Part shown: one piece after another, positions 27,194-28,258 of the stretch
Position numbering within the stretch: the stretch's first letter is position 1
Layout: each line of letters begins with the position of its first letter
Assembly (NCBI GenBank): GCA_016206505.1
Contig: JACQRJ010000047.1
Location: forward strand, 1 to 39,267
Direction: 5' to 3'
Source: Candidatus Peregrinibacteria bacterium
Lineage (GTDB): Bacteria > Patescibacteriota > Gracilibacteria > UBA1369 > LOWO2-01-FULL-3
DNA length: 39,267 bases
Made by a program: the position numbers and the translations under genes
Notes under the pieces: model-generated
Seen by the model: only the letters and a program-made list of their open reading frames with translations
Database searches by the model: none
Told to the model about the DNA's origin: nothing

Positions 27194-28258
27194 TTATTTT
27201 AATTTTTGATAGGCGCGCAATTTTGCGCTTCTGGATCTGTTGTTTTCTTCAATTTCTTTTTGAGTGGGTATTACCGGTTTTTTGGTTAGAGCCTTCACGA
27301 TTGGTTCTCCAAAGTTGCTATATATGGCATCTTGCCCCTCTGCCTTTGGACGCTCTAATCCTTTGAAAAATTGTTTTACAATGCGATCTTCAAGAGAATG
27401 ATAAGAAATAATCACAATTCTGCCATTAGGTTTCAAAATCTCCATCGCCTGGGGCAAAACTTCCTTAAGCGCGGAAAGCTCATCATTAACTTCTATACGT
27501 AACGCTTGAAAAATTTTCGTGGCAGGATGGCCTTTCATGGCCTTCGAATACTTTTTCGGCACGATCTCCTCAATATAGTCTGCCAGCTCCTTCGTTGAAC
27601 TAAATTTTTTCTCAAGACGGCGGGTACAAATATCTCGGGCAATTTTTTTCGCCAATCTCTCTTCGCCATATTCAAAAAAAATTTTTACCAAGCGACTTTC
27701 AGGATAAACATTGATCACATCGCCTGCGGTTAAAACATTTCTCTGATCAAAGCGCATATCGAGCGGCCCATCAGCCATGAAAGAAAAGCCACTTTCAGCA
27801 ATATCCACATGAGGAGAAGAAAGCCCTAAATCAAGCAAAATCGCATCTACATTACCGGTAGAAGCCTCTGGAAAATGGCCAGATGCAAGGCATCCGGAAA
27901 ATGTCGACCGCAGTGTACTGGAACGTACATGAGGATCGATATTTTTCGGCAACGCAGCAGATGGCCGTTTTCCAGAGGCTTCAGTAACCCTACTTTTCAA
28001 ATATCGAAAATTGTCGTGTACATAAGTTATTTGATTCTTATATGCACTAAGGCCAATTTTAGCCTCTTTAAGATTGCGAGCATCCTGTTCAAAAGCGTAT
28101 AAATACCCATTTTTTCCAATTTTTTTAAGAATAATTTCAGCGTGACCTCCAAGCCCCAAAGTCAAATCCGCAACCACTCCACCTTCTTTTAAATCCAAAA
28201 ACTTTTCAACATCCTCCTTTAAAACTGGTATATGCCTCTTTTTCGATCTTGAGTTCAA
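27194..28258 (-). CDS. rsmH: 16S rRNA (cytosine-1402 N4)-methyltransferase with in-frame insert
   Basis: A 354-residue methyltransferase for C1402 of 16S rRNA. Family marks: HIPVLKEDV at the start, VADLTLGLGGHAE (SAM motif), ILLDLGLSSPHVD, GPLDMRFD, PATKIFQALRIEVNDEL and ISYHSLEDRIVKQFF. The start codon is TTG at 28258, since a TGA lies in frame upstream and no ATG precedes the conserved HIPVL. Residues about 93-133 (from EASGKRPSAALP to SGHFPEAS) are not part of the family and are encoded by a palindromic element (27861-27982), so the protein is about 40 residues longer than its core. Whether the enzyme tolerates the insert is unknown, but the frame is intact on both sides. Confidence 0.92.
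   Translation of the reverse strand: MNSRSKKRHIPVLKEDVEKFLDLKEGGVVADLTLGLGGHAEIILKKIGKNGYLYAFEQDARNLKEAKIGLSAYKNQITYVHDNFRYLKSRVTEASGKRPSAALPKNIDPHVRSSTLRSTFSGCLASGHFPEASTGNVDAILLDLGLSSPHVDIAESGFSFMADGPLDMRFDQRNVLTAGDVINVYPESRLVKIFFEYGEERLAKKIARDICTRRLEKKFSSTKELADYIEEIVPKKYSKAMKGHPATKIFQALRIEVNDELSALKEVLPQAMEILKPNGRIVIISYHSLEDRIVKQFFKGLERPKAEGQDAIYSNFGEPIVKALTKKPVIPTQKEIEENNRSRSAKLRAYQKLK
27861..27982. mobile_element. Palindromic repeat element inserted in frame within rsmH
   Basis: The 20-bp end GAAGCCTCTGGAAAATGGCC (27861-27880) is matched by its complement at 27963-27982 with a single mismatch. The interior also folds: on the minus strand GATGC-CTT-GCATC and GTAC-gttcca-GTAC. The element is richer in G and C than flanking DNA, lies exactly where family members have a short surface loop, and adds about 42 codons without breaking the frame. 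It contains no transposase, so it would be a non-autonomous palindromic element comparable in behaviour to the Rickettsia palindromic elements. No clear target duplication is seen; a duplication of a few bases would bring the addition to a multiple of three. Confidence 0.7.

Follow-up and report, generated by a model that had tools for sequence, protein, structure and literature searches.

The rsmH gene of a Candidatus Peregrinibacteria bacterium carries, within the 39,267-nucleotide stretch of DNA analysed here (the window), a 122-bp near-perfect palindrome at positions 27861-27982 that adds 42 codons and keeps the reading frame. Very probably this insert is a copy of a MITE that was moved by an IS5-type transposase and that resembles the Rickettsia palindromic elements (RPE) in its working. 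In contrast to RPE, it has an identified target duplication and a likely mover. The dispersal of the copies, their clean insertion, filled and empty sites, the duplication, ends shared with the IS5 family, open frames and paired arms can all be read from the sequences themselves. In the proposed mechanism, an IS5-family (NF033581 group) DDE transposase supplied in trans would recognise the inverted-repeat ends and drive the putative insertion of the 122-bp MITE together with a 4-bp target duplication. In rsmH the element would have landed in the short loop that links the NFRxLK segment to the VDAILLDLG strand, and the added sequence would be kept as a tolerated peptide. An insertion can lengthen a protein by 42 residues without breaking it because 122 + 4 = 126 is divisible by three and because some copies are free of stop codons in several frames.

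The gene rsmH (16S rRNA m4C1402 methyltransferase) occupies positions 27194-28258 on the minus strand, has 354 codons with the insert, and matches PF01795 (Methyltransf_5) at E=1.2e-104. It is present as a single copy in the host genome, and orthologues were found in 58 of the 60 genomes searched, the host included. The family orientation of the element is likewise that of the minus strand. Two 58-nt arms (27861-27918 and 27925-27982) are 72% complementary and enclose a 6-nt loop, and the outer 20 bp, GAAGCCTCTGGAAAATGGCC and GGCCGTTTTCCAGAGGCTTC, differ by a single mismatch. These terminal inverted repeats lie at 27861-27880 (plus strand; family form GAGGACTCTGCAAAAGTACC) and, as located by arm comparison, at 27963-27982 (minus strand). 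Further inwards the conserved outer core motif CATCTGCTGCGTTG (27950-27963, minus strand), which also occurs in at least 120 stretches of named genomes from many phyla, pairs via a conserved TC/TC mismatch with a second conserved motif, CTTGCATCTG (27880-27889, minus strand). The apical hairpin GTAC-N6-GTAC is found at 27915-27928 (minus strand; helix 4), with 97% of cells paired across 72 copies. The DNA fold of the element strand reaches -33.5 kcal/mol, compared with -15.3 +/- 2.7 for shuffled sequences (z = -6.8). An earlier note, made from the letters of the window, had described a palindrome with 20-bp terminal inverted repeats and one mismatch lying inside rsmH, with the frame kept through about 40 extra residues; arm comparison and fold bear out the first part, and the second is borne out by a frame (28258-27194, minus strand) that is open throughout its length, the 42 added codons included.

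The peptide contributed by the element, EASGKRPSAALPKNIDPHVRSSTLRSTFSGCLASGHFPEAS, is flanked by NFRYLKSRVT and VDAILLDLGLSS. It is absent from all 28 aligned rsmH orthologues of relatives, in which the corresponding loop measures 2-12 residues. Alignment to the solved RsmH structures 1WG8 and 3TKA places the insert in the loop that precedes the ILxDLG-bearing strand; both this placement and the orthologue alignment had been proposed as checks in the earlier note. The net gain of rsmH is 126 bp, comprising the 122-bp element and a 4-bp target duplication that reads TACT/TACC on the coding strand (one mismatch), with coding-strand flanks GTTACT-[element]-TACCGGT. In window coordinates the duplicated copies are GGTA at 27857-27860 and AGTA at 27983-27986 (both given on the plus strand). 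Deletion of the element and one 4-bp repeat restores AGG GTT ACC GGT AAT GTA GAT GCG, that is RVTGNVDA, which aligns without a gap to the RVTGEVDA of the relative G006 (L293). Judged from these alignments, rsmH acquired the insert late. The peptide is presumably translated and tolerated, and would have no function of its own.

Duplications of the same size are associated with copies elsewhere. In the host genome exact 4-bp flank duplications accompany 6 of 14 copies at the boundaries set by the model, and 39 of 56 flank bases agree where 21.5 are expected (permutation P < 1/2000). In the relative G004 three of 14 copies are exactly duplicated (P=0.0035). Among the copies of G027, the most numerous of any genome, no target duplications were seen, and these copies are therefore either old or of other origin.

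The claim of the earlier note that the palindrome could be a dispersed, non-autonomous element is supported by its distribution. A BLAST search of the host genome with the element recovered eight other places at E<=5.5e-13, its own reverse strand, and two weak matches. A covariance model (R1) built from nine host-genome copies, the rsmH copy among them, matched that copy over its full length (1-122, E=1.2e-27) and located 14 distinct places in the host draft, the 13 others all outside rsmH. Owing to the palindromic structure, many of these places were hit on both strands. The covariance model detected copies in 17 of 60 genomes (the host and near relatives), in 23 of the 89 searched across the order and, at a strict threshold, in 5 of the 380 searched across the phylum; the scores in relatives are non-circular because relatives were left out of the model. 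The distribution is patchy within genera, as seen in the copies per genome of genera g3 (4, 0, 4, 0) and g13 (31, 0, 0, 2). Genome sizes in this set, 0.7-1.5 Mb, are in keeping with the CPR. The plasmid and phage collections had no match to the window element or to the consensus of the deltaproteobacterial form, and a search of viral contigs for the element found none. The ends vary between copies of one genome more than is usual for a MITE, which counts against the MITE reading. The earlier note had named, as the mark of an ordinary family insertion, identical residues in distant orthologues combined with an absence of other genomic copies; both parts came out the opposite way.

Several other arrangements were encountered among these loci. 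Genome G027 (L232-L251) contains 31 model matches within 1.4 Mb, nearly all intergenic and with ends like GAGAGTGTTnAATTAATGCC. The 16-bp element end, at three mismatches or fewer, occurs at 60 places in the host genome versus 9 for a reversed control. Short end-only palindromes such as GAGGACTCTGCAAAAGTCCTC are found in the host genome at L053:1408-1428 and at similar single sites in L058, L062 and L063, some with 4-bp flank repeats (CATA/CATA), and could represent footprints or the remnants of deletions. In L055:1300-1422 and L111:1501-1592 of the host genome and in L157 of a Desulfobacterales genome, CCGCCTnAGGCGG takes the place of the apical hairpin, as if tips had been exchanged.

The arms of the element are kept complementary as the sequence diverges. 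Among 72 copies, 93.9% of cells pair compared with 73.4% in shuffled controls, and 38 of 42 pairs show changes on both sides. Quasi-palindromes are known to undergo template switching, and the arms appear to be kept paired by processes at the level of DNA, either hairpin-templated correction or recognition of the palindrome. A strong hairpin with compensatory changes would also be expected of a functional structured RNA (an attenuator, a processing site or a small RNA) that disperses and is retained for the sake of its transcript, and similar repeats of Geobacter have been called predicted short RNA elements (PMC2700814). At variable pairs, however, G.T mismatches (51) are not preferred to A.C mismatches (75); an RNA constraint would have enriched G.U, so that this speaks against it, and a DNA palindrome need not favour G.U. 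Rfam was unmatched both in the window and in 12 loci of other phyla, and copies occur within coding sequence and, relative to genes, in either orientation, so that a structured RNA is an unlikely explanation.

With respect to the mover, the MITE reading draws on the ends of insertion sequences in relatives. The element is 122 bp long, with no transposase gene and with open frames of about 40 codons at most. The DDE_Tnp_1 transposases of the relatives G017 and G019 and, from an order-wide search, of G074 fall in the NF033581 group (IS5 family), and the inverted ends of these insertion sequences are GGAAGCTCTGAAAAAC, GAGGCCTCTGCAAAAG and GGACTCTCTGAAAAAA. When a weight matrix of the element ends was applied, the top two matches at each of the three loci were exactly the two IS ends; IS4, IS1634 and IS982 elements of relatives have ends that scored at background level. 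The element end of the host genome, GAGGACTCTGCAAAAG, differs from the IS end of G019 at one of 16 bases. TTAG bounds the IS of G017 on both sides, and likewise the element copy C49 of the host. The element is mechanistically not an orphan, since its ends are those of the IS5 family. G019, whose IS ends match best, has no element above threshold, which counts against this assignment. The host draft (84% complete) yielded no PF01609 or NF033581 transposase, and the mover is therefore identified only in relatives; the incompleteness of the assembly, or loss, can explain the missing transposase. Co-occurrence of PF01609 with the element (7/10 genomes, P=0.0035) was dropped as proof of the mover; it is weak because it is driven mostly by other families, the transposases being mostly IS4-like, IS1634 or IS982.

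Large palindromes are also a feature of REP/REPIN-type elements, of which some are known in frame within genes (PMC3733652), and these are moved by IS200-like Y1 (RAYT) transposases, which are encoded in 12 of the 60 relatives. The element occurs in only 2 of those 12 Y1-bearing genomes, however, where 3.4 are expected (P=0.92), Y1 genes are missing from the host draft, and neither a GTAG nor a CGTC tag is present at the ends. The 4-bp target duplications and IS5-type ends are instead hallmarks of DDE transposition. A REP/REPIN origin is accordingly very improbable, and RAYT was rejected as mover on the lack of association between Y1 genes and the element.

Additional conserved genes have been entered in frame by the same element. 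In mnmA, where a pair of sister species repeats the pattern of rsmH, a copy is present in G025 and G002 between the middle and C-terminal domains of MnmA, and the site is empty in G020, which belongs to the same genus; here the DNA alignment is interrupted by a single gap of exactly 126 bp, equal to 122 bp plus one TGAA, with 87% identity upstream. A full in-frame copy in recX splits HTH1 at profile position 25 of 40, and further full in-frame copies are found in a Wzy_C protein (O-antigen-ligase-like gene) of G004, in a methyltransferase-domain gene and in an unassigned 512-aa ORF. In-frame occurrence of one element in several unrelated conserved genes is what defines a protein-invading palindrome, the kind that RPE typify, and it is what was found. 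Genic copies lie in both orientations. All full in-frame copies are 122 bp long, and among copies outside that set this length is found in 35 of 72, with most falling between 120 and 126 bp, a contrast that is partly circular because open frames defined the genic set. As the set was chosen in this way, it speaks to what is tolerated and not to any preference in targeting, frame-breaking insertions falling outside it. Two partial copies were also noted: one, half an element, lies in frame within the TRAM domain encoded by a tRNA/rRNA uracil methyltransferase gene (L021:1714-1755; G000:C29, the host genome), and the other, shortened to 92 bp, at the N-terminal end of a frame for an FAD-dependent oxidoreductase (L111:1501-1592; G000:C8:8004-8095). 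A scan of genes of other phyla for copies yielded only two spanning frames, both probably spurious.

A strong hairpin between short repeats could in principle be skipped, so that RsmH would be made without the insert after removal from the RNA or bypass in translation. There is little prospect that this is the case, as the rsmH insert and the other genic copies alike are in frame and stop-free, and the mnmA copies of the two species have diverged by substitutions with the frame kept. The remaining reading, an ordinary lineage-specific RsmH loop in which the palindrome is incidental, draws on the 2-12 aa variation of this loop but has next to no probability and is refuted by the BLAST and model copies at 13 other places, none in rsmH, by the orthologue alignment and by the gap-free ancestral site that the 4-bp duplication yields.

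The element found in rsmH shares its interior with palindromes of distant bacteria. The shared core consists of CATCTRCKGCGTTG...CTTGYATCTG at fixed spacing with an apical GTAC hairpin, and is found in about ten phyla with differing ends. A scan with the two outer motifs at a gap of 45 to 75, covering one genome per species for 84,980 species, recovered at least 120 matching stretches where, by our own estimate, about 0.5 are expected by chance. Among the matches listed, lengths cluster at 82-90 bp, and the apical TAC/GTA hairpin is shared although it was absent from the search pattern. The matches listed come from deltaproteobacteria (Desulfobacterales, Geobacteraceae and others), Nitrospirota, Selenomonadales, Peptococcaceae, Bacteroidota, Chlorobiota, Methylomirabilota, Gallionella, Sideroxydans, Gammaproteobacteria, Scalindua, Gemmatimonadota and Chitinivibrionales; the carriers listed are mostly metagenome bins, with Geothermobacter hydrogeniphilus HR-1 and Geomobilimonas luticola as isolates. 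The ends differ between lineages (for example, GCAGGCTGCTGAAAAAGGCC and GACGGCTTCGTAAAAAGTCC). In other phyla GGCTGTTGAAAAA-like ends occur on some transposase loci, and an exact pair with a co-resident element was not found there. With regard to the tip (L112-L231 compared with alignment A3), CCTCA stands on the 5′ and CTGCGG on the 3′ side in the host and in some Nitrospirota, Bacteroidota and Gallionella copies, and in most deltaproteobacterial copies the two have changed places.

Common descent is the likely source of the core as judged from its sequence, convergence on a recognised structure being a possible alternative. It is tentatively suggested, at slightly less than even confidence, that a single lineage spans about ten phyla, keeping its core while the arms turn over as matched pairs and the ends follow the resident IS5-type transposase, and that it invades proteins in the small-genome relatives of the host. 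This raises the question of why the core but not the ends should be kept in a non-coding palindrome, and whether some host factor might recognise that core. The earlier note knew of no such element described for this group; any confinement of the element to the group does not hold, as its core is found in many phyla. A description of the superfamily was not found in the open-licence literature, and searching the text of open-licence papers for the element sequence returned only primers or similarities by chance.

Protein-invading palindromes have been known since those of Rickettsia, yet their mode of movement had stayed open; with a likely mover family, a target duplication and natural empty sites in hand, the question of movement becomes testable. 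The findings are also a warning for annotation, as core genes such as rsmH, recX and mnmA can contain transposon-derived peptides.

The protein-invading palindrome is a kind of element already known, and RPE, ERIC and NEMIS fusions as well as REPs in genes have been recorded (PMC2229807, PMC10969869, PMC3733652). RPE are likewise dispersed palindromes (105-150 bp) of a reduced genome, found between genes and in frame in conserved genes, where about 40 residues are added to host proteins (PMC2229807, PMC10969869); this likeness is one of description. The RPE literature lists the target duplication as unknown and does no more than hypothesise about movers (PMC2229807, PMC10969869), whereas for the present element IS5-family ends, a 4-bp duplication and both filled and empty sites were found. 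IS-derived MITEs (Correia/NEMIS, ERIC) have in common with it terminal inverted repeats, a short target duplication, a non-coding nature and some in-frame fusions, but the present element is palindromic over its whole length, shares only about 16 outer bp with an IS, and has a core conserved over phyla with ends that change. REP/REPIN elements with RAYT are also palindromic, numerous and in part in frame in genes, but consist of units of 20-40 bp tagged with GTAG or CGTC, those with GTAG having a Y1 transposase (PMC3733652), none of which was seen here. Similar intergenic palindromes occur in several Geobacter species and Desulfotalea according to PMC2700814, and L168 of Geomobilimonas luticola has the centre GACGTAGCGCTGCTACGCC; the probable identity with the present family is drawn from the published centre. 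The text of that paper treats the repeats as RNA elements of one lineage and does not give ends, target duplication, mover or protein insertion; a portion of the core superfamily was probably seen earlier in Geobacter as predicted short RNA elements (PMC2700814). What is new is the occurrence of this family in the lineage, together with its 4-bp duplication, its IS5-type ends, its filled and empty sites, and its link to a core shared across phyla.
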